Source: Bacteroidaceae bacterium
GTDB taxonomy: Bacteria; Bacteroidota; Bacteroidia; Bacteroidales; Bacteroidaceae
Assembly: GCA_017524545.1 (NCBI GenBank)
Contig: JAFXVN010000072.1
Coordinates: forward strand, 1-64,000
Length of the DNA stretch: 64,000 nt
Direction of reading: 5' to 3'
Part shown: piece after piece, positions 29,250-45,115 of the stretch
Numbering within the stretch: the first letter of the stretch is position 1
Layout: every line of letters starts with the position of its first letter
The notes under the pieces: model-generated
Seen by the model: the letters and a program-made list of their open reading frames with translations, nothing else
The model's database searches: none
What the model was told of the DNA's origin: nothing
Translations under genes and position numbers: made by a program

Positions 29250-29882
29250 ATGAAGGAGAATCCCTTAATACGGCTGGGTAATATCCCTGTGCAGACAGAT
29301 ACCATTGCAAGTTTCTTTGACCAACTTTCGTCGCCTCACGAAAAGATACGAATCTTAGAAAAGGACGGGCAGCTGATTCGTTTGAAACGCGGATTGTATG
29401 TAGTGGACGAACGAGTGAGTGGAAAGCCTATCAATATCCGTCTATGTGCGAACCATATCTACGGACCATCATACGTGTCACTTCAATGGGCTTTAAGATG
29501 GTACGGTCTTATTCCAGAGCGTGTGAGTACAATGACCTCCATTACTACTAAGCGAACTCGCATGTTTGAGAACGCTTTGGGGCGATTCACCTACTATCAG
29601 GTCAAACCGGACTATTTCTCTATTGGCATCAGGAGCGTAGAGGAGCATGGCGTGGCTTGTCTTATGGCCTGTCCGGAAAAAACGCTTTGTGATACGATTC
29701 TTTATGATTCCTACTTGCCGCCGCAATCAGCTAAAAGGCTGGAGCAATACTTGGAGGAGGACATCCGTTTCGACACTGATGCCCTGAGAGATTTTGATGT
29801 CAGTATCATAGAGGCCTGCACCCAGACTGGCAGGAAGGAACAGATACTAAACAATCTAATTAAAATAATCAAGAAGAGATGA
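29250..29882 (+). CDS. abiEi: AbiEi-type antitoxin / transcriptional regulator
   Basis: 210 residues. The N-terminal winged helix (EKIRILEKDGQLIRLKRGLYVVDERV) and the following NHIYGPSYVSLQWALRWYGLIPE are typical of the AbiEi family, which represses its own promoter and counteracts the AbiEii nucleotidyltransferase without direct binding (type IV toxin-antitoxin). The stop overlaps the AbiEii start by 4 bases. Together they give abortive infection against some phages. Confidence 0.85.
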   Translation: MKENPLIRLGNIPVQTDTIASFFDQLSSPHEKIRILEKDGQLIRLKRGLYVVDERVSGKPINIRLCANHIYGPSYVSLQWALRWYGLIPERVSTMTSITTKRTRMFENALGRFTYYQVKPDYFSIGIRSVEEHGVACLMACPEKTLCDTILYDSYLPPQSAKRLEQYLEEDIRFDTDALRDFDVSIIEACTQTGRKEQILNNLIKIIKKR

Positions 29883-30700
29883 ATTTATACGATGATATGG
29901 TGGCTGAACATGCCAAGAGGTTAGGCACTGCCACTCCCAATGTTGAGCAGGAAGTTATGCAGCGTATCGCCCTTGCAGGATTGCAACGGGGAGGATTCTT
30001 TGACCATGCAGCTTTCTATGGAGGAACCTGCCTGAGAATCTTCCATGGGCTTCCACGTTTTTCAGAGGACATGGACTTTTCACTGGTGGAAAAGCGAGAC
30101 GACATCCATTTGGAAAACTATTTCCGCGCTATTACTGAAGAGTTCAAGCTTGCGGGGCATGAGGTGGACATTGTAAAGAAAGAGAAAAAGATATTCGGGA
30201 GGGTGGAGTCTGCATTCCTTAAGGAGAACACGGAAGCATACGACATCAAGTTCCAAACAAGGAAGATGGTTAAGGTAAAGATAGAACTTGACACAGACCC
30301 ACCTTTGGCTTTTAAGACAGAACAGAAGATACTCCTGCAACCATATACTTTTATGGTTCGCTGCTTTACTCTGCCCTATCTATATGCCGGCAAGATGCAC
30401 GCTTTGGTCTATCGTGCCTGGCAACGCAGAGTCAAGGGACGCGACTGGTACGATTTCGAGTGGTATGTGCGTCATCAAATACCTTTGGACTATCAGCACT
30501 TGCAAGAGCGGATTCGCGAGTTCAGCGGGAAGGTGGTGGAAAAGGAGGAGTTTATGCAACTGCTTCGTGAGAAACTCTCTGGGACTGACATCGAACTGGT
30601 CAAGCAGGATGTGGTGGATTTTATCGACAACCCCCACGAGACTGACATCTGGTCGAACGACTATTTCCTTCAGTTGGCGGATATGATAGTATTCAAATAA
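29879..30700 (+). CDS. abiEii: AbiEii nucleotidyltransferase toxin
   Basis: 273 residues with the AbiEii signature FYGGTCLRIFHGLPRFSEDMDFSL (GGT...R...SEDxDF) at about residues 45-68, the active-site Asp pair, and the later RVKGRDWYDFEWYV motif. AbiEii transfers nucleotides to tRNA acceptor stems and blocks growth. Translation is coupled to abiEi. The gene is followed after 10 bases by the start of a secreted protein gene, so some readthrough is likely. Confidence 0.87.
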   Translation: MNLYDDMVAEHAKRLGTATPNVEQEVMQRIALAGLQRGGFFDHAAFYGGTCLRIFHGLPRFSEDMDFSLVEKRDDIHLENYFRAITEEFKLAGHEVDIVKKEKKIFGRVESAFLKENTEAYDIKFQTRKMVKVKIELDTDPPLAFKTEQKILLQPYTFMVRCFTLPYLYAGKMHALVYRAWQRRVKGRDWYDFEWYVRHQIPLDYQHLQERIREFSGKVVEKEEFMQLLREKLSGTDIELVKQDVVDFIDNPHETDIWSNDYFLQLADMIVFK

Positions 30701-32611: not shown

Positions 32612-34060
32612 TTACATTTCCTGGAAGATGTACGTCAGCTTCTTGTCGGCACCGAAGGCACTGTAGAAATAGCTGATGATTTCGCTGAGGTGCTCTTCCC
32701 ACTGCTCCGAGACGAACTTGTTAGGCACAGAGACAAACACCGTCTTGTCGCGAACCGACCAGAGGCTGGCGCAGGTCATGTACTTATTGTAGAACTCCAG
32801 GCCAAGACGCTCGCGAGCCTTCTCCATCCAGAGGTTCCACTTCTGCAAGTAGATGGGCTGCACATACGGACGCTCCGGCTCTTCGTCCTTCACCTCGACG
32901 GCCTCGGCAAACTCCGGCTGCTTGGGTTTCTGCTGCTCCAAAAGCCAGCGGTACAGCACTTCCGTAACGTATGCATGGACATTGTCGGGCTGCTTCTCCT
33001 CGACGAGCTTGTCGATACGCGCCAGTTCGGGTTTCAGGTCGAGTCCGTCGTATATGAGGTCTTCTAATTTCGTCCATTCCATCGGCTGAAGTCCGTAACG
33101 GGTGATGAGCGTAGCCCTCATTTTGCCGAGATAGCTTTCGTGTTGCTGAGCCTGCCCCATCTTGCCCTCGATGATGGTGAAGCGGATGCTGTCTGGGTCG
33201 CCTCGGCTGATGCCGTGGGGATAAACTGGCTGGTACTCGAAGCAGAACTCCACCTTGCCCTCGTCCGAGAGTTTCCGCATCTCCTTCAATACAGGGTCGA
33301 GCACATCGCGATGGAATGCGCCATATTTGACGTACCTGTTCTCGACGATACGCTTGTGGTCTTTGCTGAAGGTGAGCACGCCGAAGAATTCCTTCAGGTC
33401 GATGTAGTTCACGGTACAGGCACCGATTTTGCGCCAGGCACTCAGGTAGATGTAGAGACGGGGCGTGCGGGGGCTGCGGCAAAGAGAGGTGATGCCTTTC
33501 AGGTGACGGGTGTAGCCCTTGCGAAGGTTCAGAATCTCGCGGGCACTCTCGTCCACCATCGAAATCTTGATGACACCCTTTCTGCGCACGCCTCCCTTGT
33601 AAGCGACTTTCTCGCCAGCGGCATTGATTTCTGCCTTTGGGAACTCTATCTTGTGGAAGACGTTCTGTTTCACATAATACTCTACACGCTCGTATTCATC
33701 GTAGCGCTTGTAGGACATATCCACATGAAGCAGAGCCTCACATGCCGCTTCCAACTCGTCGTACTTCTTTGGACTGATGCCCAGCTCCTTCAATGGAATC
33801 TCAAAGTTGAGCAAGTTGCCAGCCAAATCCTCTGGCTTGAAGAGGAATGTGCTCTCGCCCATGCTGAGCTGTTCGCGGATACGGTCCTGCAACTGTGCTA
33901 TTATGGCAATCATCAGATTGGTCTGCACCAGCGAGAAGTTTCCGCGTATCTGTGTATAGCTTACCGGATTGAGGATGAAGTCCAGGTCTCTGTTGCCTGA
34001 AAACGTCTGTACCAGTTCGTTTTTCGTGCTAACTATTGCCGGCCCTTTTTTCTTCGCCAT
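32612..34060 (-). CDS. Rep_3-type replication initiator with DnaA domain I-like C-terminus
   Basis: 482 residues. Residues about 10-290 form the Rep_3/RepB initiator (two winged-helix domains): NELVQTFSGNRDLDFILNP, SYTQIRGNFSLVQTNLMIAI, TPRLYIYLSAWRK, IDLKEFFGV. Such proteins bind iterons and open the origin of plasmids and secondary chromosomes. The last 85 residues (LWMEKARERLGLEFYNKYM, then TVFVSVPNKFVSEQWEEHL) resemble the N-terminal domain of DnaA, which recruits helicase. Divergent from it, starting 85 bases upstream, is a 24-bp iteron array. Very likely the initiator of this replicon. Confidence 0.85.
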   Translation of the reverse strand: MAKKKGPAIVSTKNELVQTFSGNRDLDFILNPVSYTQIRGNFSLVQTNLMIAIIAQLQDRIREQLSMGESTFLFKPEDLAGNLLNFEIPLKELGISPKKYDELEAACEALLHVDMSYKRYDEYERVEYYVKQNVFHKIEFPKAEINAAGEKVAYKGGVRRKGVIKISMVDESAREILNLRKGYTRHLKGITSLCRSPRTPRLYIYLSAWRKIGACTVNYIDLKEFFGVLTFSKDHKRIVENRYVKYGAFHRDVLDPVLKEMRKLSDEGKVEFCFEYQPVYPHGISRGDPDSIRFTIIEGKMGQAQQHESYLGKMRATLITRYGLQPMEWTKLEDLIYDGLDLKPELARIDKLVEEKQPDNVHAYVTEVLYRWLLEQQKPKQPEFAEAVEVKDEEPERPYVQPIYLQKWNLWMEKARERLGLEFYNKYMTCASLWSVRDKTVFVSVPNKFVSEQWEEHLSEIISYFYSAFGADKKLTYIFQEM

Positions 34061-34145
34061 TTCTGTTCTTTTTTATGTTTTCCGCTGCAAAATTAAACCA
34101 TTTCATCGTAATAAACAAATTATTTGCCGAAAAATGTTCCAACAA

Positions 34146-34392
34146 TTCGCACTTTGTTGCTCTTTATCTTTCGCACGACACTGTTTTATCGCTCTCGCAC
34201 CTCAATCTTCCGCATTTGCCGTACCTCTATTATCCCTTACCCATGCACCTCCATCATCCCATATCGACACACCCTAATTATCCTTCACCAATGCACCACA
34301 ATTATCCCCCTTCAAAGCACCTAAGTTATCCTATCGTCACACTTTAATTCTCCCTTACCGTTGCACCTCGTCCTTTTGCGCCCCAACTACCC
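34146..34392. repeat. 24-bp iteron array (replication origin)
   Basis: A GCACC-type core recurs at 34149, 34173, 34197, 34221, 34245, 34269, 34293, 34317, 34339 and 34363, exactly 24 bases apart except one 22-base step. The better copies read GCACCTCAATTATCC with a C/T-rich end. A degenerate extra copy is at 34378. Strict phasing immediately upstream of the initiator gene is the hallmark of iterons bound by a Rep_3 protein. Confidence 0.88.
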
Positions 34393-34494
34393 TACTCTTC
34401 CCGAAGTCCGCACAAAGTCCTCATGTTCTGTTCACCTTGTCTTCCCCATCCCCGCACTATATCTTCCGATTCTCCGCACCTCATCCCATATTAT

Positions 34495-34615
34495 ACGCTG
34501 ATAATCATTGACTTGCCACAAGCAATAATCTATATATAATAATAATGTGATAAACGATATTCTAAAAAACACCTTATTATTATAATAATTGAATATCTTA
34601 TTTAATTATGCCGTT
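34495..34615. other. AT-rich putative unwinding element
   Basis: Long A/T tracts (tatatataataataatg, ttattattataataattg) between the iteron array and the 22-bp repeats; a plausible melting region of the origin. Confidence 0.5.
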
Positions 34616-34653
34616 CTTTAAGTCCTTCATTTTCAGGCTTTACCTTATGTCTT

Positions 34654-34740
34654 GGTGCGAACATTAAGAACACCTGGTGCGAATAGACGGAACATTTAGT
34701 GCGAACTTCGTTAACTGTTCGTGCGGACTTTAGGTACATT
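34654..34740. repeat. Four 22-bp repeats with GTGCGAAC core
   Basis: GTGCG cores at 34655, 34677, 34699 and 34721, each followed by an A/T-rich half. The core is the reverse complement of the CGCAC found in the iterons and in the TCCGCACC words of 36.9-37.4 kb. Confidence 0.75.
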
Positions 34741-34744
34741 CTAC

Positions 34745-34980
34745 CTTTTTCCCTTCTATCTGAATACCTCCATATACAAATATCTAATCACTCGTATTTC
34801 TCCATATCCAAGTGTCTGTATATCCAAGTTTGCCAGTATTCAGGTCTCTGCATACATGGATATAAGTGTATGTGAGTATTTTTATACGCACATATATTGC
34901 TATCCACACATCTATATATCCCTTGCTATCTGCATACCCACATATTTGCAGATATTTACATATCTTATCCTAATTTCCCC
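34745..34980. repeat. AT-rich ATATCC/GTATTT words upstream of parA
   Basis: Recurrent CATATCCAAGTGTCTG, TATATCCAAGT, GCAGATATTTACATATC and similar words. Related words recur at 35041-35072 and, inverted, at 36022-36080, so parA is flanked by them on both sides. Confidence 0.6.
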
Positions 34981-35073
34981 ATAATTAAGCGATAAACCCA
35001 TTGGTTTTTGTTTCTGTTTCCGTGATTGAAAATATAAAAGTATGTAAATATGCACAAATATCTGCGTATTTGC

Positions 35074-35104
35074 TTGCGGTTTTCATGGAAAAGCTATATC
35101 TTTG
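35074..35104 (+). promoter_or_regulatory. parA promoter
   Basis: TTG at 35074-35076, 20-base spacer, TAtcTTTG at 35097-35104; 33 bases before the ATG at 35138. The upstream GTAAATATGCACAAATATCTG overlaps the expected operator region. Confidence 0.75.
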
Positions 35105-35137
35105 CATCGTCAATATAACAAGAAATAGAATAAGTAT

Positions 35138-36025
35138 ATGTCACAAGTAATTTCTCTTTTACATGATAAAGGTGGCTGTGCAAAGACAACGACCTGTGTC
35201 AATCTCGGTTTTGCGCTTTGGCTTCTTGGCAAAAAAGTCTTGCTCGTAGATACAGATCCGCAGTGCAATTTGACAGATACTGTCGATAAAACCGTGCATT
35301 TGGAAGCTGAAAGCACAATTTATGAATGGCTGCACGACGGTGTGCCTGGAGAGTCTCTTCCCCTTCCAATTTATACGCGATATGATGGGCTTGACTATGT
35401 GCCAGGCAGTCACAGTATGAGCAATATCAATGCAGAACTCCAATTGATGTATAATCGCGAACGTCGTTTGGCAGATTTCCTGAACCTTACCGACCCGGAA
35501 AGCGGCTTGAGAATCCGAGATATGTATGACTATGTCTTCATCGATTGTGCTCCGGGTGGTGAGACTTTGATGAACACTAATGCTTTGGTTGCCAGCGACT
35601 TCGTTATCGTGCCTACTGAGGCCGGTATCTATAGTCTTCAGGGGCTTCCGCGTCTGCTTGACTATATAAATAAGGTGCGCACTCAATTGCGTTGCCCTGT
35701 TTCAATCATGGGTTATCTCCTGGTGCGCTGGAACAAGAATCGCAATCTAAGCCGCGAAGTAAAAGAGTATTATGGTAACATTAAAGAAGTTAAGGCGCCT
35801 CTGTTCCCTGTTAGCATTCGTGAAAGCATAAGGTGTACCGAGTCGGTTGCCAATGAAATGTCTCTTTTTGAGTACGCCAGCAATAGCCCTGTTGCAGATG
35901 ACTACATGAGGGTTGCAGAATTTATGATTGGTCGCAAGGCTCGTCCAAAGAACTGGACACCAGCGCGTTGGGGACAGATTGCGAATGCGGCTTATCAGAC
36001 GTTCATGCGCGAGCGAAGTATGTAA
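35138..36025 (+). CDS. parA: ParA-family partition ATPase
   Basis: 295 residues. Deviant Walker A KGGCAKTTT (residues 11-19), Walker A' VDTDPQCNL and Walker B YVFIDCAPGGE mark the ParA/Soj family. It lacks an N-terminal DNA-binding domain, as in chromosome-like and type Ib systems. ParA binds DNA nonspecifically and moves replicon copies apart with the help of a centromere-binding protein, here most likely the product of the gene at 36127. Divergent from the replication initiator across the origin. Confidence 0.92.
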   Translation: MSQVISLLHDKGGCAKTTTCVNLGFALWLLGKKVLLVDTDPQCNLTDTVDKTVHLEAESTIYEWLHDGVPGESLPLPIYTRYDGLDYVPGSHSMSNINAELQLMYNRERRLADFLNLTDPESGLRIRDMYDYVFIDCAPGGETLMNTNALVASDFVIVPTEAGIYSLQGLPRLLDYINKVRTQLRCPVSIMGYLLVRWNKNRNLSREVKEYYGNIKEVKAPLFPVSIRESIRCTESVANEMSLFEYASNSPVADDYMRVAEFMIGRKARPKNWTPARWGQIANAAYQTFMRERSM

Positions 36026-36126
36026 ATATCTGGATATGCAGACACTTGGCTATTCGGGTGTTTGCGTATCGTCATATTCAAATAGACAAACAAAGAATTA
36101 ACTCACTAAACATTAAGCTAAAAGTA

Positions 36127-36498
36127 ATGGCTATTAAGAAGAAAACCTTGAATATCAGTCGTGTGGCAGAGGAAGCTACGCGCAATTTTGTTGCACCGAA
36201 GCCTTTGGCGACCAACGAGGCTGTTCGCACCCAGATAGTACAGGAAACGCCTGCGCCAAAGCCGATGCGTCGCGTCTGCACCATTCAGAAGGTGGGCGGC
36301 TTCAGTTTCTTCACGACGGAAGACGACCGCAATGCGCTCGACTACATTGCTTTCCGCCAGAAGCTCGAGAAGCAGAACATCGTTCGTGCTGCCCTCCATC
36401 AGTTCCTTCGCCAACACTACAAGGAGGGCCAGGGACTCGACGCAGAATCCCTGCGCATCATCGAGCAGTACGAAGATACAGTCTATCAGTGGGTATAA
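36127..36498 (+). CDS. Small putative centromere-binding partner of ParA (RHH-like)
   Basis: 123 residues from the ATG at 36127. The N-terminal 50 residues are basic and flexible; the C-terminal region (FFTTEDDRNALDYIAFRQKLEKQNIVRAALHQFLRQHY) has the strand-helix-helix spacing of ribbon-helix-helix proteins. Position after parA and size fit the small ParB/ParG-type partner of type Ib partition. A strong terminator follows at 36573, then four palindromic repeats at 36667-36748 that could be its binding sites. Family assignment is by layout, not by clear sequence identity. Confidence 0.6.
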   Translation: MAIKKKTLNISRVAEEATRNFVAPKPLATNEAVRTQIVQETPAPKPMRRVCTIQKVGGFSFFTTEDDRNALDYIAFRQKLEKQNIVRAALHQFLRQHYKEGQGLDAESLRIIEQYEDTVYQWV

Positions 36499-36572
36499 AA
36501 CCCCAGATATGGTGCTGCAAAATCCACAAAAAGAGTGAATATCCCTTGAAATAGGGTAGGGGAAAGAAAAAA

Positions 36573-36620
36573 GGCTCAAAATGTTGTAAATTATTTTCGC
36601 AACATTTTGAGCCTTTTCTC
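36573..36620 (+). terminator. Terminator after the par operon
   Basis: Perfect 14-bp stem GGCTCAAAATGTTG / CAACATTTTGAGCC with a 13-base loop and a T-rich tail. Confidence 0.92.
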
Positions 36621-36666
36621 TTTTACCTTTATGATACTGAAAGGTGCTATTTTTCATTAAACGTGC

Positions 36667-36748
36667 CTCGTTGCCCAACGGAACACGCTTAGTTGGTCAA
36701 TTAGGCCTGTTTAGTTGGGCAACTAAGCATGTTTAGTTAAGCAACTAA
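36667..36748. repeat. Four palindromes at 22-bp period, parS candidate
   Basis: CGTTGCCCAACG (36669), TTAGTTGGTCAATTAG (36689), TTAGTTGGGCAACTAA (36711) and TTAGTTAAGCAACTAA (36733), all with a GTTGnnCAAC-like centre and exactly 22 bases between centres. Placed just after the par operon. Confidence 0.8.
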
Positions 36749-36859
36749 ACTGCGTTTGTTTTTCTTCTGAATATCTGTTTCTTACCAAGTAGGTGCGGAT
36801 GGTTTGCCAAATCAACACGTTTTGTCAACGATTTTTACTTTTCGCGAGCTTTGTCACCA

Positions 36860-37420
36860 AAAAGTTGCACCTTTTTCGCACCTCTTTTCAATCTGGAACG
36901 ACCCATTTTGCGTGCTTTTGAGCTTCAAGGCACGAGAAATCTTCCTAAACTCCGCACCAACCTGCGCGAAATGCCCCGACAAGGTGCGAACTTTGGGAAG
37001 AGACTTCACCAGGCAAGTTTAATTCCCCTTTGAATCGCACGTGTATTGCCCAAAGTCTTGACCTAATCCGGGCAAAAGCTTCCCATAGTTCGCACCAAGA
37101 GCCTTTTCTTAGGGCTTTCACACCTTGAAATGTTCCCTATCTCCGCACTTGTAGCTTAAAATCTTCCCTAAGTCCGCACTTTAATGCCCCATGCCGAGAC
37201 TGTAATCGGTCAATATCTTCCCAAACTCCGCACCGAGGTGCTAAAACCGATAGGGTAGGGGTATAATATCTTCCCAAAGTCCGCACCAAGAGGACACTAC
37301 ATCCTTCATCCACTCCGATTCCGCAGGTCGTCCCGACCTACGGTTACTGAAAGGAGACGGTTTCACCGTCTTGGTGGTTTCTCTACGGATAATCATTATG
37401 AAACAGGTGCGGACTTTGGG
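36860..37420. repeat. Dispersed TTCCCAAAGTCCGCACC words
   Basis: Copies or near copies at 36878, 36940-36958, 36983 (inverted), 37081-37096, 37131-37148, 37161-37178, 37215-37234, 37267-37287 and 37405-37420 (inverted), plus one at 34399-34412 near the iterons. Several neighbours are 53-55 bases apart. Two small hairpins occur at 37324-37369. No gene is visible in this stretch. Confidence 0.65.
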
Positions 37421-37473
37421 AACAAAACGGAGCTAGTAAGAAAGAGTAGATAAGTAACCACGCAAAATTATCT

Positions 37474-37568: not shown

Positions 37569-37724
37569 AAATTAAAACCCTGTTTCGTGTGATGAAGAAT
37601 ATGTAAAGTAATTGCGAACATTTACTTAACAAGAAAGCATAATAATTTGTGATTGATTTATGGTAATTTGTGTCTTTAACATATTTTTCTTTAAGCTCTG
37701 CAACAGAATGGCAGACCTTTTCCG

Positions 37725-37749: not shown

Positions 37750-38706
37750 ATGAGCAGAGAAAAAGAAAGAGGACCGGGTTTGATGCGGAAATATGTCTGG
37801 GTGCTTGACACCATCCTTCGCCACCACAAAATTACGTTCCGCGAGCTGAACGACCTGTGGGTAGATGGAAACCTGAGCGGCGGAAAGGACCTGCCCAAGC
37901 GGACTTTCGACAACTGGTGCAACGCCATTGAGGACATTTTCGACATAGACATCGAAAACGAGCAGGGCGGCGACTACTGCTATTATATTAAGGATGAAAG
38001 GGAGTTCCGAAGGGACGAGCGGCGCATCTGGCTCTTCAACACCTTCAACGTCATCAATGCCCTTGGCGATTGCCAGCGCATCAAGGACCGCATCCTTCTG
38101 GAATATGTCCCGTCCGGCGAGCAGCATCTTCAGCCAATCATCGAGGCCATGAAGGAGGGCCGCGTGCTCAACATCACCTATCAAAGCTATTGGAACGAAG
38201 AGGAGAACGATTTTGATGTCCAACCCTATTGTGTGAAACTCTTCAAGCAGCGTTGGTATATGGTAGCCCGAAGTACAGACCCTTATTATTATAAGAAAGG
38301 GCCGTTCATCTATTCTCTTGACCGAATCAGGTCTCTTCGCACGAAAGACGAAACCTTCAAGATGCCAGAGGACTGGAGCGCAGAGGAGTTTTTCGAAGGC
38401 TGCTTTGGTATCATCGTCGAACAAAAGGTCAAGGTTCAGCCAGTCAAGCTGAAAGTGTCGGCAGGACAAGCCAACTATATCCGCGACCTCAAGCTTCACG
38501 AGTCGCAGCAAGAAATAGAGCGGAATGAAGAATACAGCATATTCAGGTACCGCTTGCGCCCATCCTTCGACTTCATCCAGGAACTGCTCTGGAACGGCAG
38601 CGACATGGAAGTGCTGGAACCCCTTTGGCTTCGCGACGAGATGGCAAGAATAGTGGAGCAAATGTGGAAGAAGTATAAAATGGTAAATGATAAAATGGTA
38701 AAATGA
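37750..38706 (+). CDS. WYL-domain transcriptional regulator
   Basis: 318 residues. An N-terminal winged-helix region (LMRKYVWVLDTILRHHKITFRELNDLWVDGNLSGGKDLPKRTFDNWCNAIEDIF) is followed by a WYL domain (VLNITYQSYW, QPYCVKLFKQRWYMVARS, YSLDRIRSL) and a WCX-like C-terminal domain. Such regulators bind nucleic-acid-like ligands and often control defence genes. The last residues KMVNDKMVK come from an AT-rich repeat (38677-38705), and the TGA overlaps the next start (ATGA), coupling it to the exonuclease gene. Confidence 0.85.
   Translation: MSREKERGPGLMRKYVWVLDTILRHHKITFRELNDLWVDGNLSGGKDLPKRTFDNWCNAIEDIFDIDIENEQGGDYCYYIKDEREFRRDERRIWLFNTFNVINALGDCQRIKDRILLEYVPSGEQHLQPIIEAMKEGRVLNITYQSYWNEEENDFDVQPYCVKLFKQRWYMVARSTDPYYYKKGPFIYSLDRIRSLRTKDETFKMPEDWSAEEFFEGCFGIIVEQKVKVQPVKLKVSAGQANYIRDLKLHESQQEIERNEEYSIFRYRLRPSFDFIQELLWNGSDMEVLEPLWLRDEMARIVEQMWKKYKMVNDKMVK
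38677..38705. repeat. AT-rich repeat at a gene junction
   Basis: aaaatggtaaat occurs twice, forming the end of the WYL gene and the start codon region of the exonuclease gene. Confidence 0.6.
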
Positions 38707-39194
38707 AAGACTTTGCAGCAATAGATTTTGAGACCGCCAATAACGAGCGCAGCAGTGTTTGTTCCGTTGGTGTCGTCATTGTTCGGGGCGGCGAGATAGT
38801 GGATAGCTTCTACTCCCTCATTCAGCCAGAACCGAACTACTACAACTACTGGTGCCAGCAGGTACACGGCCTTGGTTACGAAGACACAGACAATGCCCCC
38901 ATCTTCCCCGAAGTCTGGGCACAGATTGAGCCGCTCATCGAAGGCCTGCCCCTTGTTGCCCACAACCGACCCTTCGACGAGAGTTGCCTCAAGGCCGTGT
39001 TCCGTGTCTATCGGATGGACTATCCCGACTATGAGTTCCTCGACACCCTTTGCGTCTCCCGTCGCAAGTTCCCCTCCCTGCCGAACCACCAGCTCCAGAC
39101 TGTCGCCCAAGCCTGCGGCTTCTGCATGAAGAACCACCACCACGCCCTCGCCGATGCCGAGGCATGTGCCTGGATAGCAAGGGAGATACTGTAA
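38703..39194 (+). CDS. DnaQ-like 3'-5' exonuclease
   Basis: 163 residues of the DEDDh exonuclease family: AAIDFETAN (Asp and Glu, metal site), LVAHNRPFDESCL, and HHHALADAEACAWIA (His and Asp). Similar stand-alone proteins work in DNA repair or RNA processing. It is translationally coupled to the WYL regulator upstream. Its last 18 bases (39177-39194) recur at 45098-45115 on the far side of the DUF262 island. Confidence 0.88.
   Translation: MKDFAAIDFETANNERSSVCSVGVVIVRGGEIVDSFYSLIQPEPNYYNYWCQQVHGLGYEDTDNAPIFPEVWAQIEPLIEGLPLVAHNRPFDESCLKAVFRVYRMDYPDYEFLDTLCVSRRKFPSLPNHQLQTVAQACGFCMKNHHHALADAEACAWIAREIL
39177..39194. repeat. 18-bp direct repeat, left copy
   Basis: GCAAGGGAGATACTGTAA, the end of the exonuclease gene; 17 of 18 bases match 45098-45115. 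Confidence 0.7.
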
Positions 39195-39650
39195 TATGCA
39201 ATTTATGCATAAAACTCTTTCAACAAGTCGGGATTTCCGACAAGTTCAATAGCCAACCTGTGCAAATAATGCACTTGTTCCATTTGGGAACACGTGATAA
39301 AAGAATAATAGATAAGAATAACGTGCAGAATATATACGATAAAGATAACAACACGCATTTTTTGCGTGTTAATGACGAGGGGAACCCTGGTAAGTGCAAA
39401 ATTTGCACATACCACCCGACATGGCTCAACCTGTAAAGATTTCTTACAAGTTCAAAGGCTAACCAGTGCAAACAAAGCAACAATCAAGAAATACTTGACA
39501 GAACAAAAGAAAGGAACAAACAATCTGTGGTACTCTCAAATTATGCGACTACCACTTATTATAAAGGATAAACAGACAAACAGAAAAGGAAGCAGGATTA
39601 GAAAGATTGAATATGTAGAAGGATGATTTCTTCATTTATAAATAAAATCG
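39195..39650. other. Non-coding gap with several different palindromes
   Basis: Contains dyads of similar build but different sequence: TCGGGATTTCCGA (39228), GTGCAAATAATGCAC (39260), GTTCCATTTGGGAAC (39277), ACACGCATTTTTTGCGTGT (near 39351), GTGCAAAATTTGCAC (39393) and GTAAAGATTTCTTAC (39433). A 37-base segment at 39238 recurs loosely at 39443. Small ORFs here look random. Confidence 0.55.
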
Positions 39651-39658
39651 TATCTTTG
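39651..39658 (+). promoter_or_regulatory. -7 element of the island's first gene
   Basis: TAtcTTTG 22 bases before the ATG at 39680; it lies inside the longer frame from 39623. Confidence 0.6.
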
Positions 39659-39679
39659 CAGAAGGAAATAAACAAAACT

Positions 39680-40285
39680 ATGAACGCACTTGATGAATTT
39701 GACCAAATCATAAAAACTGGCTACAACAGTGAAAAGCTTCGCGATATAAAACCGAAGCTTGATAGTTATCTTTTGTCTTGCCCAGAAGAAGAGAAGGCAA
39801 AATGCCGAAAGACTATTGAACTGGTAGAAAGGCTGATTGCCGAATGTAAAGAAGTGGACAAGCTCCGTCAGCAATACAACTTATTCCACGACTATGTATC
39901 AGGGAATAATAGCAAGTCGGGAGCTGTTGACTTGGAATATATCGAACCTAATGGCAATTCCTATGGTGTATATGTTAAGGTTGACAAATATGTGATTGAG
40001 ATTGTTTTTAAGCCGGTGGAAGAACCCAAGAAGAATGAGATTCGAACCAAGTTCTACATTGATGTTGATGGCATATACAAACCATTCATGATAGGAAAAG
40101 AGTTTGTTCCCGCTGAATATGCCATTATTCAAAATAAGCGCAGGGATTATTATTCCATACCTGTAAAATGGGATAATTGGGGTGATATAGCGATTAAAGC
40201 CATAGAAATAGTTAAGAACGACACTCGGGGATTCCTGCAAATGTGTGAGTCGTCATGCCTTAATAATAAAGATGGCTCACATTAA
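39680..40285 (+). CDS. Hypothetical protein at the start of the DUF262 island
   Basis: 201 residues, not recognised. Residues 1-70 are helical and charged and may form a coiled coil (IKPKLDSYLLSCPEEEKAKCRKTIELVERLIAECKEVDKLRQQYN). Residues 80-185 look beta-rich (VDLEYIEPNGNSYGVYVKVDKYVIEIVFKPVEEPKK). No signal peptide or membrane segment. The gene has its own promoter and precedes the DUF262 pair by 99 bases; its base composition is AT-rich like theirs. It could be an accessory or regulator of the same system. Confidence 0.6.
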   Translation: MNALDEFDQIIKTGYNSEKLRDIKPKLDSYLLSCPEEEKAKCRKTIELVERLIAECKEVDKLRQQYNLFHDYVSGNNSKSGAVDLEYIEPNGNSYGVYVKVDKYVIEIVFKPVEEPKKNEIRTKFYIDVDGIYKPFMIGKEFVPAEYAIIQNKRRDYYSIPVKWDNWGDIAIKAIEIVKNDTRGFLQMCESSCLNNKDGSH

Positions 40286-40327
40286 TACTAATCTTGGAAA
40301 ACTAATGCAAAAGATTCTGTAAAAGTA

Positions 40328-40358
40328 TTGAGATGAAACGAGAAAAGCAGTATCTTTG
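40328..40358 (+). promoter_or_regulatory. Promoter of the DUF262 operon
   Basis: TTG at 40328-40330, 20-base spacer, TAtcTTTG at 40351-40358; 26 bases before the ATG at 40385. Confidence 0.75.
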
Positions 40359-40384
40359 CAAAGGAAAACGTAATATAATTAGGT

Positions 40385-42082
40385 ATGACAACTAAGTTAA
40401 TCACTAAATTAATAGGAGATATTGACGGTGATTTTATTATCCCGGCATATCAGCGTGGATATCGTTGGAACGAAGAAGTTTTAATGTTACTAAATGATCT
40501 CAATGAGATTCCTGATGGAACTGAATATTGTTTGCAGCCGATTGTCGTGAGAGCCTTAGGTAATGAGAAGTTTGAATTGATTGATGGCCAACAACGAATT
40601 ACCACATTGTTTTTGCTGCTTAATTACATTAGAACATTCCGACCGAAAATGAAAATCAAGTTTTCCATTGATTATGAAATTCGGTCTAACAGCAAGGACT
40701 TTTTATCTTCTATTGATTTCGACAACATAGCAAATAATCCACAGAACATAGATGAGTTTTTTATTAATAATGCAGTCCTAATTATACATAATTGGTTTAA
40801 AGGCCAGAAAGATGAAGACAATACAGCATCGCTTTTAGCTAATAAACTAAATAATTGGGTTAAGGTTATCTGGTATGAGGTTGATGATACAGAGAATGCT
40901 GTATCTTTATTCACCCGTTTGAATATTGGTAAAATACCTTTAACAAATGCTGAGCTTGTAAAGGCAGTCTTTTTGAGCAGGAATAATGGCATAGATGAAC
41001 GTCATCAATTAGAAATAGTAACACAGTGGGATACAATAGAGAACGAACTCCATAATGATAAATTTTGGGCTTTTATTACGAACAAACAAGCCGAGTTTTT
41101 TCCCACACGAATCGAATTACTCTTTGATTTAATGGCAAATAAACTTGAAAATGATAGAGAGCGACTAAGAACGCTATTCTATTTTCAAAACCGAATCAAT
41201 GAAGTTCATCAAAAGAATGGGGAGAAAATTGATGTTTGGAAAGAAGTAGTATCATATTTTCAACGTTTAAAGGAGTGGTATAACAACTCACAATTATATC
41301 ATAAGATAGGTTATCTAATTACAGTAGGACAGAAAACATTGCAAGAATTATTTATACAATCTTCTTGTTGTAGTAAAAAAGAATTCATCCTTTACTTGGA
41401 TAAATGGATAGCGGAAAGTATAAAGTTCGAAAAATATGCCGACCTTTCTTATGAGAATCCCTCCGAAAAAGCATGTATTGAAAAATTATTGTTATTATTT
41501 AATGTAATTAGCACATATACAAATGGAGATAAATCCATGTTCTTCCCATTCGCTGAACACAAACATAAGAAAGGTGGATGGTCTTTAGAGCACATTCATG
41601 CTCAACAGTCTGAAGGTTTGAAAACTGCTGATTTATGGAAAGAGTGGCTTAAATTACATGTAAAATCTTTGAAAAATATAGACAAAGAGCGATATCACGA
41701 TTTAATTCATGAAATTGAAGGATCATACGACAGTCTTAATCGCGAGCGTTTTTTAGAGCTTTTCAATCAAGTGATTACTAGTTTGGACTTAGAACAAACT
41801 CCAAATTATATTCATTCTCTAGCTAATATGGCATTATTGGGTCGAGATGACAATTCAGCCCTTAATAATTCCACGTTTGATGTAAAACGCGATAAGATCT
41901 TGGAAATGGATAAGCGAGGAGACTATATCCCTATATGTACTCGTAGAGTATTCTTGAAATATTACACTCATTCAGAACATAATCAATTGCATTTCTGGGG
42001 TCAAGGAGATAGAACTGATTATTTGAATGCAATGAATGAAACGCTAAAACCATATTTGACAATCATAAATAAGACAATTTAG
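40385..42082 (+). CDS. DUF262 + DUF1524 protein (GmrSD-like)
   Basis: 565 residues. The N-terminal DUF262 domain has IPAYQRGYRWNEEVLMLLNDL and the nucleotide-binding motif IDGQQRITTLFLLL (about residues 62-75). The C-terminal DUF1524 region has WSLEHIHAQ, the His-Me nuclease motif of this family. This is the GmrSD/SspE-like layout, in which DUF262 hydrolyses nucleotides and DUF1524 cuts DNA, often modified phage DNA. A second DUF262 protein starts 1 base downstream. Codon use is clearly more AT-rich than flanking genes, indicating transfer. Confidence 0.87.
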   Translation: MTTKLITKLIGDIDGDFIIPAYQRGYRWNEEVLMLLNDLNEIPDGTEYCLQPIVVRALGNEKFELIDGQQRITTLFLLLNYIRTFRPKMKIKFSIDYEIRSNSKDFLSSIDFDNIANNPQNIDEFFINNAVLIIHNWFKGQKDEDNTASLLANKLNNWVKVIWYEVDDTENAVSLFTRLNIGKIPLTNAELVKAVFLSRNNGIDERHQLEIVTQWDTIENELHNDKFWAFITNKQAEFFPTRIELLFDLMANKLENDRERLRTLFYFQNRINEVHQKNGEKIDVWKEVVSYFQRLKEWYNNSQLYHKIGYLITVGQKTLQELFIQSSCCSKKEFILYLDKWIAESIKFEKYADLSYENPSEKACIEKLLLLFNVISTYTNGDKSMFFPFAEHKHKKGGWSLEHIHAQQSEGLKTADLWKEWLKLHVKSLKNIDKERYHDLIHEIEGSYDSLNRERFLELFNQVITSLDLEQTPNYIHSLANMALLGRDDNSALNNSTFDVKRDKILEMDKRGDYIPICTRRVFLKYYTHSEHNQLHFWGQGDRTDYLNAMNETLKPYLTIINKTI

Positions 42083-42083
42083 T

Positions 42084-44261
42084 ATGGGACTTACAGAATA
42101 TACATTTCAAAACTTATTTGGAGAGCACCTAGATCAAAAAGGGAATCTATTTGAGATACATGAAATAGAAATTCCAATTATTCAGCGTGATTATGCGCAA
42201 GGTCGCAATAATAGTAACGTAATGCGTATTCGCACTCGCTTTTTGGATGCACTATACAACGCATTGACAATGCACAAAAAGATGACACTTGATTTTGTGT
42301 ATGGAGAAATCAAAGATAAGAAGTTTATTCCGTTAGATGGCCAGCAGAGATTAACAACGTTATTTCTGCTGTATTGGTACGCAGCTCAAAAAGAGCATAT
42401 AAATGAGCAAGATTCTATTTTTTTAAAACATTTCACTTATTACACACGCCCTAGTTCTCGAGATTTTTGCGAAGAATTGGTTAAGTATTCTCCAACTTTT
42501 GTGGAAACGTTATCCGAAGAGATAAAAAATCAATCATGGTTTCAATATCAATGGTATAACGACCCAACAATTTTGAGTATGTTAGTGATGATTGATGCTA
42601 TTGATGAAAAGTTCAGAGAAGTTGAAGCATTGTGGGACTCTTTAACTGTAAATCCTTGTTTGTCGTTCTATTTTTTACCAATTTCTGAAATGGGGTTAAC
42701 AGATGAATTATACGTTAAGATGAATTCAAGGGGAAAACCTCTTACTCAATTTGAGCATTTCAAAGCAGAGTTTGAGGAATTGATTAAAGAGTATGACGAA
42801 AACTTATCCAAAGAGATAAATCACAAATTTGATATTGAATGGACGGATATGCTTTTCCCTTATCGCGGAGATAACCAAATCATCGACGATGAATTCATGC
42901 GCTATTTTTTCTATATAAGTGACATATTATTTTATCAACAATATCCAAAGTCACCATTGGAGCAGGACGAGTTTGTTTTAGCGAAAACTCTATATGGAAG
43001 CGGATGCCCGAAACAGAAAGAAAACATTGAGTTCTTGGTGAAATCATTTGATTGTTGGTGTAATGTAGATGAAAACTCTATAGATGAATTCTTTAGCAAG
43101 TTCCTTTCAGGTCAGCATTACCAAATTGGAAAGGTTAAAATATACCAGGACAATCTTAACCTTTTTAAGCAATGTTGCGATACATATCGGGAATACGAAG
43201 GTAGAAATCGAAAATTCCCTTTGAATATGACACTTCTACTCTATGCGTTTATTATTTATTTACAAAATAAAAGTTCAGTTACTGAAACTGATTTTAAACG
43301 GAGAATAAGAATTATAAGAAATTTAATCTGGAATTCACAATTTGAAATCCGTGCGGATGGTCAGCGTAATAATATGCCTCAATTGTTGGAAGAAACACGA
43401 GAAGTTGTTCTTCATGGGCGACTATTAGATGAAGTGGGTTATAATAAGAATCAGAAAGAAGAAGAGAAAAAGAAGTTAGAATGGGTTAGTGCAAATCCTA
43501 ATTATGTAGATTCTTTATTCCATTTAGAAGACGATCCTATTCTTTATGGCTGTGTAGCTATAATTGGCCTTGAACATTCACAGAATTTTGATAGATTTAG
43601 GATGTTGTTCAATAGTGTTACAGATAGAAAACTCATCCACAGAGCTTTACTCATATATGATGATTATTCTCAAACAGCATATGGTAATGTACATTATATG
43701 GGGAATAGCAATCTAAGCACATGGAGAGACTTGTTTCATCCAACAAATCAAAGAAATGGCTTTGAACGTACATCAAACGCATTGAATTGTTTATTAGATA
43801 GTTTAACAGACTTCTCTGATAAAGGCTTGAATCAATTGATAGACAGTTATATCGAACAGCAACATCAAAAATTTGATTGGCGATACTATTTCATAAAATA
43901 TAGCGAGACACTATGTGGAAATTGGGGTGTATTATGCTTAAATGAGGCTCCTTATGATTGGTACACTCTTCGACAATCCACCTTCCGCGGATTTAATTGG
44001 CAATCTATAGCCCGAGCAATATATCAGATTGCTCCAAATAAATTTACAATGGGGAACTGGGCTTATATGCAATATGAGCCACTATTCATTGCTAATACGC
44101 AGAAAAAGATAATGGTTAAAAATGATCATTTTGAGATTTCTGAGAATGATTGTATCATACAATCTATTCAGATTCCACAAGATGAAAATGATGGTATAGA
44201 TATTGTCGATCGCGTTGAATACTTTATTAAAGTTTGTGACGAGTTTTTTTTCGTGAAATGA
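42084..44261 (+). CDS. Second DUF262 protein, no visible HNH motif
   Basis: 725 residues. DUF262 motifs are clear: EIPIIQRDYAQGRNN and PLDGQQRLTTLFLLYWYAA (about residues 82-99), then KMNSRGKPLTQFEHFKAEFE, typical of the longer DUF262 subgroup. The C-terminal 350 residues are helical and I see no DUF1524 LEHI motif, so this subunit may sense or regulate rather than cut. It lies 1 base after the first DUF262 gene and overlaps the phospholipase D-like gene by 4 bases, so all three should be made together. Confidence 0.82.
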   Translation: MGLTEYTFQNLFGEHLDQKGNLFEIHEIEIPIIQRDYAQGRNNSNVMRIRTRFLDALYNALTMHKKMTLDFVYGEIKDKKFIPLDGQQRLTTLFLLYWYAAQKEHINEQDSIFLKHFTYYTRPSSRDFCEELVKYSPTFVETLSEEIKNQSWFQYQWYNDPTILSMLVMIDAIDEKFREVEALWDSLTVNPCLSFYFLPISEMGLTDELYVKMNSRGKPLTQFEHFKAEFEELIKEYDENLSKEINHKFDIEWTDMLFPYRGDNQIIDDEFMRYFFYISDILFYQQYPKSPLEQDEFVLAKTLYGSGCPKQKENIEFLVKSFDCWCNVDENSIDEFFSKFLSGQHYQIGKVKIYQDNLNLFKQCCDTYREYEGRNRKFPLNMTLLLYAFIIYLQNKSSVTETDFKRRIRIIRNLIWNSQFEIRADGQRNNMPQLLEETREVVLHGRLLDEVGYNKNQKEEEKKKLEWVSANPNYVDSLFHLEDDPILYGCVAIIGLEHSQNFDRFRMLFNSVTDRKLIHRALLIYDDYSQTAYGNVHYMGNSNLSTWRDLFHPTNQRNGFERTSNALNCLLDSLTDFSDKGLNQLIDSYIEQQHQKFDWRYYFIKYSETLCGNWGVLCLNEAPYDWYTLRQSTFRGFNWQSIARAIYQIAPNKFTMGNWAYMQYEPLFIANTQKKIMVKNDHFEISENDCIIQSIQIPQDENDGIDIVDRVEYFIKVCDEFFFVK

Positions 44262-44770
44262 CCAGCTTCATCTCCAATGCTGACCACTACAAAGAGGTGC
44301 TTTCGCGGGTTCAATCCGTGAAGCAGACTCTTTGGATTGGAACCGCCGACATTAAAGACCTTTACGTTGAGATGGGCAAAGAAAAGAAACCATTTCTGGC
44401 TCTTATTGCCCAGCTCATTCGTAAAGGTGTGGAGGTGCGGCTGATTCATGCAAAGGAGCCAGGGCCAAACTTCAGGGAGGACTTCGACAGGTACCCTGTC
44501 CTGTACGACCGCTTGGAGCGAGTGCTTTGTCCGCGAGTCCACTTCAAGATGCTGGTCTTTGACTGCAAGGAGGTGTATGTGGGTAGCGCGAACCTCACTG
44601 GTGCCGGCATCGGAATGAAGACTGACAACAAGCGAAACTTCGAGGCTGGCATCCTGACCGATGACCCGGAAATCGTGGAGCAGGCCATGAACCAGTTTGA
44701 TGATGTCTGGATAGGGAAACATTGTAAGACCTGCATGCGAAGAGACTTCTGCCTTGACCCAATCGCATAA
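44258..44770 (+). CDS. Phospholipase D-like nuclease with one HKD motif
   Basis: 170 residues with a single HKD motif, HFKMLVFDCKEVYVGSANLTGAG, as in the Nuc/BfiI branch that dimerises to build one active site. The N-terminal part (TLWIGTADIKDLYVE) also fits the fold. The C-terminus has CKTCMRRDFC, which may bind a metal. Its start overlaps the second DUF262 gene (ATGA), and GC content rises within it toward the genome average. A nuclease effector for the DUF262 pair is the simplest reading. Confidence 0.82.
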   Translation: MTSFISNADHYKEVLSRVQSVKQTLWIGTADIKDLYVEMGKEKKPFLALIAQLIRKGVEVRLIHAKEPGPNFREDFDRYPVLYDRLERVLCPRVHFKMLVFDCKEVYVGSANLTGAGIGMKTDNKRNFEAGILTDDPEIVEQAMNQFDDVWIGKHCKTCMRRDFCLDPIA

Positions 44771-44799
44771 ATCTTTTCGATAAAAGTTCACTTTCTTTA

Positions 44800-44833
44800 G
44801 ACCTCTGCCCCTAAACGGCAGAGGTCTTTGTTT
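44800..44833 (+). terminator. Terminator after the DUF262-PLD operon
   Basis: AGACCTCTGCC / GGCAGAGGTCT stem with a 6-base loop, followed by TTTGTTT. Confidence 0.9.
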
Positions 44834-44849
44834 ACTTTGCGCTTGGATT

Positions 44850-44966
44850 CATTTTGTTAAAGAAAGGATATATGGCAACAGTTCCGACAACATCGTGCAG
44901 GAACTCTCTTCTTATTGTGAAAGCGAGAGACTGGAGAAGGGCCAGCCCCGCAAGATAGGATTCTGA
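44850..44966 (+). pseudogene. Possible C-terminal gene remnant
   Basis: One frame reads FVKERIYGNSSDNIVQELSSY then CESERLEKGQPRKIGF and TGA at 44964. The composition looks like real protein but there is no start or upstream coding. Family not recognised. Confidence 0.25.
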
Positions 44967-45011
44967 TTGCAAATAAATTGCAGATGATGTCGGAGATACG
45001 GGAAAAAGTTG

Positions 45012-45019
45012 TAACTTTG
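45012..45019 (+). promoter_or_regulatory. -7 element before the RhuM-like remnant
   Basis: TAacTTTG, 22 bases before the ATG at 45041. Confidence 0.5.
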
Positions 45020-45040
45020 TCTTCGAAAAAGCTTATTAAC

Positions 45041-45115
45041 ATGCAAGAGAACCAGATTGTAATCTATCAGACAGAGGACGGGCAAACACAAACAACAGCA
45101 AGAGAGATACTGTAA
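45041..45115 (+). pseudogene. RhuM-like N-terminal remnant joined to exonuclease 3' end
   Basis: ATG at 45041 starts MQENQIVIYQTEDGQTQ, the usual beginning of RhuM-family proteins, but after 17 codons the frame ends TTAREIL and stop. The last 18 bases equal the end of the exonuclease gene (AREIL stop, 39177-39194). This is a fusion of two gene ends left by recombination. Confidence 0.65.
45098..45115. repeat. 18-bp direct repeat, right copy
   Basis: GCAAGAGAGATACTGTAA; matches 39177-39194 at 17 of 18 bases and marks the right edge of the AT-rich island. Confidence 0.7.

Follow-up and report, generated by a model that had tools for sequence, protein, structure and literature searches.

Two-protein restriction systems of the GmrSD family were named only in 2024-2025. 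GrwAB, a type IV system published in 2025 from VSP-II of the WASA lineage of Vibrio cholerae, protects Escherichia coli against Tevenvirinae and Queuovirinae, needs both of its genes to do so, and is escaped by phages mutated in a DNA-modification gene (PMC12137116). TgvAB, from V. cholerae VPI-2, likewise consists of two DUF262 proteins that are both needed for protection, one of them with DUF1524 (PMC11411939); outside DUF262, GrwB is described as distinct from TgvA (PMC12137116). What is said here and below of the two systems reflects partial texts of both reports. Here we describe a locus from a 64,000-nucleotide stretch of a Bacteroidaceae bacterium (assembly GCA_017524545.1, contig JAFXVN010000072.1, positions 1 to 64,000 of the forward strand), hereafter the window. 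Two adjacent genes of this locus, A and B, probably represent a GrwAB-type, modification-dependent (type IV) restriction pair that forms an exchangeable insert, or cargo, within a conserved set of genes, the frame, which encodes a WYL transcription regulator and a 3'-5' exonuclease ahead of the pair and a PLD-family nuclease behind it (Table 1).

The pair was called GrwAB-type because its gene order, domains and motifs match those of GrwAB. In both, a protein with DUF262 and DUF1524 is encoded first and one with an N-terminal DUF262 and a long unassigned part second; QR, DGQQR and FxxxN motifs recur (the last as YxxxN in B); and the His-Me nuclease has an H..N..N arrangement whose two asparagines lie nine residues apart (PMC12137116). 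In A, both GmrSD_N (DUF262; 3.1e-30) and GmrSD_C (DUF1524; 1.7e-06) scored above the Pfam cut-offs; in B, GmrSD_N was found (1.5e-21) and GmrSD_C gave no match. The DGQQR arginines are R71 in A and R89 in B. Residues H403, N481 and N490 of A were invariant in all 41 aligned A proteins, and DGQQR was present in 39/39 B proteins and 39/41 A proteins, the other two having no such stretch in the alignment. The C-terminal part of B conserves R409, N413, E461, K464 and E482, and no histidine past residue 300 was conserved at 85% among the 39 B proteins. When profiles were compared, only residues 24-263 of B aligned with A, and the B profile matched solved DUF262 proteins across DUF262 only.

Other named relatives share part of this layout. 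TgvAB shares the presence of two DUF262 proteins with DUF1524 in one only, but its nuclease-less gene comes first, ahead of the DUF262-DUF1524 gene and inside a type I restriction-modification operon (PMC11411939); the window pair does not have this order but its reverse. A also resembles HEC-06, a DUF262-nuclease enzyme (PADLOC model, 7.9e-26). However, BrxU, GmrSD, SspE and HEC-06 are described as single-protein systems, whereas here a nuclease-less DUF262 neighbour was present at 39/39 loci.

The genome loci compared in this work came from samples comprising 201 family genomes and 295 order genomes, many of them incomplete, and some stretches end at contig edges. Among the family genomes, 29/201 held relatives of B at E up to 1e-10 (counting the window's own); others were detected in 16 plasmid records, two genome-collection loci and 13 viral contigs, and no match was found among phage records. 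We examined 39 pair loci (29 regions from genomes, eight of these plasmid records, L034 and the window), all of which had an A-like partner upstream of B. The partners overlapped or sat no more than 12 nt apart in 37 of them, the exceptions being L041 (100 nt) and L053 (963 nt, with the A frame cut). The pair also occurs in L033 and in a ninth plasmid record, pE2-28, and an A-like match lay beside B in 13/13 viral-contig loci, the weakest being 23% identical. This large and divergent set of pairs, together with the conserved polar residues of B, adds to what is known of two-protein GmrSD systems. On one viral contig (L258, 4334-10119) the four genes are reordered, with GrwA-like and GrwB-like genes followed downstream by an exonuclease (41% identical) and a WYL gene (27%).

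An initial annotation, made from the letters of the window alone, had proposed a restriction- or defence-type locus in which a DUF262-DUF1524 protein is paired with a longer DUF262 protein that has no recognised nuclease. The domain assignments agree with ours and the conserved pairing is supported. Its view that the pairing was undescribed is not supported, since GrwAB shows this gene order and domain arrangement and TgvAB is a related system (PMC12137116, PMC11411939). Thus a named system with the same layout exists for the pair, though not for the pair plus the PLD gene.

The genes on either side of the pair recur as a frame, which we define as the exonuclease gene, cargo or none, and the PLD gene, all on one strand. 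This arrangement was found in 14 loci from nine genera and two families (the window, L050, L067, L070, L107-L114, L132 and L234, the last from another family, f42), with a WYL gene detected in 12 of them (not in L050 or L113). L070 has a broken PLD gene and L132 a truncated one. In all ten filled loci with an intact PLD gene, it starts -4 to +45 nt from the preceding stop, so that it is tightly coupled to the cargo, and the G+C content of the cargo is below that of both the exonuclease and the PLD gene. The exonuclease is common, occurring in 128/201 family genomes (E up to 1e-30); the PLD protein, sought on its own, was found in 32/201 family genomes (E up to 1e-8) and 30/295 order genomes (E up to 1e-12). 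Some of the longer counts for exonuclease, PLD and WYL are counts among the matches listed. Both the HxK(x4)D motif and a C-terminal CxxCxR[RK]xxC cluster, perhaps a metal site, were present in 48/48 unbroken PLD proteins (the window and 47 relatives).

The cargo varies from frame to frame, family searches having covered selected cargo proteins. A GrwAB-like pair is the cargo of five frames (window, L050, L067, L070 and L234), in L067 with a peptidyl-arginine-deiminase-family gene behind it. L109 and L110 carry a different DUF262 pair (DUF262-DUF7834 and DUF262-DUF1524), these being the two proteins searched among eight cargo reading frames in L109. Elsewhere we found McrB-like AAA and McrC proteins (L107), a Mrr-type nuclease with four scanned genes that gave no Pfam match (L132), a PD-(D/E)XK protein (L112), an AAA ATPase with PD-(D/E)XK (L114), and a UDG-like match just under the Pfam cut-off (L108). 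RhuM-family genes follow the exonuclease in L107, L108 and L132. Two frames, L111 and L113, hold no cargo, with 68 and 65 bp between exonuclease and PLD gene; in L111 the exonuclease is altered at its 3' end. Of ten cargo proteins compared with PADLOC, seven matched a model at 1e-5; the McrC, UDG-like and deiminase-family proteins matched none at that threshold.

Frame and cargo were compared in two trees. In the PLD tree (49 proteins, with the broken PLD loci L070 and L132 left out), 12/12 labelled intact frame PLDs fell in one clade (support 95/81), and 0/500 shuffles gave as low a number of changes. The GrwA tree comprised 41 proteins; L053, whose A frame is cut, and L183, which shares its place with L060, were left out, and L033, L234 and L256 were added. 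There the five frame proteins lie separately: against all 36 other rows they require five changes, the maximum possible, all five forced by well-supported branches, and counted against the 12 other labelled rows only they require four, of which three are forced. One PLD clade and five separate GrwA places together point to cargo having changed inside a shared frame. Identities agree with this picture. The window A shares 58% identity with a protein from Chlorobiota, 56% with its counterpart in Prevotella sp. 10(H) and 48% with a Peptoclostridium plasmid protein; compared with its congener L067, the window has an A of 32% identity, an exonuclease of 85%, a PLD of 88% and a WYL protein of 62%, so that its A is nearer to the Chlorobiota and Clostridia versions than to the frame A of L067. 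As judged from these trees and identities, frame and cargo have different histories.

Turnover at such a locus, by gain or by loss, is shown by three loci of one genus. The upstream flanks of L108 (filled) and L168/L178 are 98.6-99.7% identical up to the exonuclease start, and the exonuclease region is 86-88% identical. L168 and L178 have the exonuclease without WYL, cargo or PLD, whereas L108 has an extra ∼980 bp with WYL before the exonuclease and ∼7.1 kb after it.

A description of the WYL-exonuclease-cargo-PLD frame was not found in the open-access literature, at the level of titles and abstract openings and including partial texts of PMC11411939, PMC12137116, PMC9122601, PMC12409362 and PMC10924106; the text of the GrwAB paper does not contain the words WYL, exonuclease, phospholipase or HKD (PMC12137116). 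With respect to that literature, the pair thus belongs to a known kind, and what is new is the frame with its exchangeable cargo. The frame suggests that restriction enzymes against modified phage DNA are exchanged while a regulator and two nucleases stay constant, and it offers a rule by which more cargo may be found, namely to look between the exonuclease and the PLD gene.

Several observations weigh against a GrwAB-type pair in a conserved frame. The H-to-N spacing of the nuclease is 90 in GrwA and 78 here (PMC12137116), and the proposed membership is drawn from architecture and residue positions, not from sequence alignment. Around the 39 pair loci, on the same strand upstream, an exonuclease was found at 10 (within 3.5 kb), a WYL gene at 12 (within 4.5 kb) and both at 7. 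These upstream genes, which lay outside the limits of the initial annotation, are commoner than the PLD gene, found downstream at 4. WYL is thus absent from 27/39 loci, the exonuclease from 29/39 and PLD from 35/39 (five of the 39 have less than 3 kb of upstream sequence), and therefore the pair does not need them. On plasmid pE2-28 of Prevotella sp. E2-28, WYL, 3'-5' exonuclease and two DUF262 genes stand in one run with no PLD directly behind. The exonuclease and PLD genes, for their part, often occur alone in ordinary chromosome contexts. In 40 further exonuclease loci, WYL was missing from 38 and PLD from all, within stretches examined that are in some cases short. Finally, in L241, a locus outside the frame clade, the exonuclease shares a strand with PLD and stands 5.8 kb upstream of it, but genes on the opposite strand separate the two. 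L241 was not labelled as a frame; if it is, the PLD tree requires two changes rather than one.

The initial annotation had taken the PLD protein as a dedicated effector, which would make this an undescribed three-gene system with PLD serving both DUF262 proteins. Its start does overlap the stop of B here and lies at -1 nt in L234 and +7 nt in L050. Given, however, that the pair was kept at every B locus and the PLD gene at so few of them, that the same PLD clade follows McrBC, PD-(D/E)XK and other cargo, and that A has intact nuclease residues of its own, we consider such a system very improbable. A chance gathering of genes in a variable region, as in an ordinary defence island, is also disfavoured. 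Defence genes do cluster, an AbiEii-type gene lies in the window at 29.9-30.7 kb, and WYL genes near type IV enzymes are already described in the partial text of PMC9122601, yet the frame genes keep one order and one strand across 14 loci from nine genera and two families, and the frame PLDs form a single clade, which makes this explanation unlikely. It is a serious possibility, although not one we would favor outright, that the frame is a functional multi-nuclease operon in which the slot enzyme cuts first and exonuclease and PLD finish the degradation under WYL control. The genes lie on one strand and overlap or nearly do so, PLD is coupled to each unrelated cargo, and the cargo consists mostly of DNA-cutting systems; across the 201 family genomes, a count by eye gave at least 23 loci with WYL and exonuclease genes no more than 60 bp apart, and distant exonucleases (39-42% identical) stop 6-12 nt before GrwA in L042, L054, L057 and L074. 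This reading is opposed by the occurrence of exonuclease and PLD on their own, by cargo kept with a broken or truncated PLD (L070, L132) or with none directly downstream (L256), and by the two frames without cargo.

That exonuclease and PLD are bystanders, serving as homologous borders for cargo exchange with no role in defence, is credible as well, though we stop short of calling it probable. In the window, a copy of GCAAGnGAGATACTGTAA, the sequence with which the upstream exonuclease gene ends, stands exactly at each edge of 39177-45115, the limits given in the initial annotation, and the exonuclease 3' end is also repeated twice in L132; in L108, the lower identity of the exonuclease region than of its flank, and the presence there alone of WYL and the ∼7 kb, also fit an exchange at these borders. 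With up to 3 mismatches, GCAAGnGAGATACTGTAA occurs twice in the 64 kb, against a mean of 0.15 in 100 shuffles, none of which held two, a comparison flattered by drawing the pattern from both copies. Edge repeats of the exonuclease 3' end were, however, recognised in only 2/57 exonuclease loci, and the 19-bp match in the window (E 0.008) scores no better than chance 14-16-mers elsewhere, so that only its place speaks for it. The catalytic motifs of PLD, moreover, are kept in every unbroken copy, stand-alone copies included. Site-specific integration on the 18-bp repeat alone was rejected given the rarity of the repeats. No integrase was seen among six genes scanned with Pfam, no wider integrase search having been made, and an attempt to find an empty site through the downstream DUF1343 gene in seven congeners gave no blastn match to the window left of that gene in any. 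In L132 (6528-13480), two PLD fragments occur together with two remnants of the exonuclease 3' end (32 bp at 100% and 31 bp at 94%), an arrangement that resembles two tandem cargo units, as if units stack behind the exonuclease.

Under the GrwAB-type reading, and by analogy with GrwAB, A and B would form a complex in which the DUF262 domains of both bind and hydrolyse nucleoside triphosphate and recognise phage DNA that carries modifications; this DNA would then be cut by the His-Me nuclease of A. Three boxes of the form TAnnTTTG, which we take to be a promoter consensus, precede the WYL gene, the small gene and A and suggest three transcription starts; A, B and PLD would then share one transcription unit. 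Control of the locus by the WYL protein would be in keeping with its position and with what has been published on such regulators. The exonuclease and PLD may take part in trimming the cut DNA, or may only form the constant edges of an exchange site. Cargo is presumably swapped by recombination at the frame genes. We would put forward tentatively a combined arrangement, a WYL-controlled unit whose two accessory nucleases finish the degradation begun by swapped, mostly DNA-cutting slot enzymes, the swap possibly occurring through recombination that uses the 3' end of the exonuclease gene.

The frame genes have relatives in other defence contexts. CapW is reportedly a WYL regulator of defence loci. 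BrxR is a WYL regulator adjoining type IV and other defence genes according to the partial text of PMC9122601, and the window regulator resembles it in its WYL and WCX domains, both found by Pfam; no helix-turn-helix family was matched in that scan. The words exonuclease and phospholipase are absent from PMC9122601, and the order WYL-exonuclease-slot-PLD was not found in its partial text. The PLD gene has weak family matches to DrmC, NucT and DpdK, which are single-HKD proteins, but all three fall under the NCBIfam cut-offs (41.5 bits against 133 for DISARM DrmC), and the family here has its invariant C-terminal cysteine cluster. No DISARM model was matched by five other scanned genes (PADLOC, 0.1). 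Outside the frame clade, PLD genes stand mostly among genes without signs of defence (by eye, with few scanned), and on that ground we rejected PLD as a defence-only family; exceptions are L118 and L254, in which PLD is preceded by a second DUF262 pair (as judged from the sequence start) and a UDG-like-looking gene, respectively.

The initial annotation had placed A, B and the PLD gene as a run of overlapping or nearly overlapping genes preceded by the small gene, and the coordinates bear this out (Table 1), with a gap of 1 nt between A and B and an overlap of 4 nt between B and PLD. The WYL stop and the exonuclease start also overlap by 4 nt. The WYL open reading frame opens at 37660, and its likely start lies 18 nt past a TACCTTTG box. 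The exonuclease carries DFE at residue 8, AHNRPFD at 86 and HHALADAE at 146, which we take to be the DEDDh motifs; its nearest solved structures are the DinG exonuclease and the PolC-type PolIII. Read from its first ATG (39623) the small gene would encode 220 residues; the shorter form given in the initial annotation is the likelier, because its ATG sits 22 nt after a TATCTTTG box. This gene is a near-orphan, with one partial homologue (50% identity) in 1/200 other family genomes. The block described as AT-rich is indeed poorer in G+C than its flanks at 40-44 kb (33-34% in four 1-kb bins, against 39-51% in six bins at 34-40 kb and 53-61% in six bins at 45-51 kb). From the exonuclease stop to the PLD start the G+C content is 34%, and it is 56% in the exonuclease; since the PLD gene itself stands at 51%, the AT-rich block comprises the cargo without PLD.

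Table 1. Features of the locus in the window, with coordinates, strand and the matches or signals on which each assignment draws.
Feature	Position	Strand	Basis
WYL-WCX transcription regulator	37750..38706	+	Pfam WYL 1.1e-13, WCX 2e-12; starts of relatives
DEDDh-type 3'-5' exonuclease, 163 aa	38703..39194	+	Pfam RNase_T 7.1e-22
Left copy of 18-bp direct repeat (exonuclease gene 3' end)	39177..39194	+	
Promoter-like TATCTTTG box before small gene	39651..39658	+	repeat family D4
Small gene, 201 aa, no family over cut-off	39680..40285	+	
Promoter-like TATCTTTG box before gene A	40351..40358	+	repeat family D4
GrwA-like protein (A), 565 aa, DUF262 + DUF1524/His-Me nuclease	40385..42082	+	
GrwB-like protein (B), 725 aa, N-terminal DUF262 + long C-terminal part	42084..44261	+	
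PLD-family nuclease with one HxK(x4)D motif, 170 aa	44258..44770	+	PLDc_2 4.9e-14
Remnant: RhuM-family gene 5' end in frame into exonuclease 3' end	45041..45115	+	tblastn 1.8e-05 to RhuM N-terminus
Right copy of 18-bp repeat	45098-45115	+	

Further WYL-exonuclease loci were observed beside the 14 frames. L271, L272 and L274 appear to have no cargo. In L276 and L277 the exonuclease is followed by two genes that are presumably SbcD-like and SbcC-like (the SbcD-like gene of L277 gave a Metallophos match), a possible further kind of cargo. The window's own genome holds a second such locus on another contig (L045, contig C58, 6970-10751), where an exonuclease 97% identical to that of the window precedes a RhuM-family gene and another gene that matches UDG weakly. 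On a viral contig (L255, 5977-12284), one run of genes begins with WYL, which has 68% identity to that of the window, and continues with an unassigned gene, the exonuclease, a further gene, McrB-like and McrC.

Within the window, a two-gene unit at 29250-30700 has an AbiEii-type nucleotidyltransferase as its second gene (4.7e-33; 29.9-30.7 kb), and its first, without a Pfam match, would be AbiEi by position. Directly beside the frame lie a gene for a Rep_3-type initiator (32612-34060, minus strand) and a ParA gene (35138-36025), with 12 copies of an iteron-like TTCCCNAANTCCGCACC around them; together these constitute a plasmid- or chromid-type replication module at 32612-37422. With up to 3 mismatches, TTCCCNAANTCCGCACC occurs 13 times in the window against 1.55 expected, for a pattern drawn from the copies themselves.

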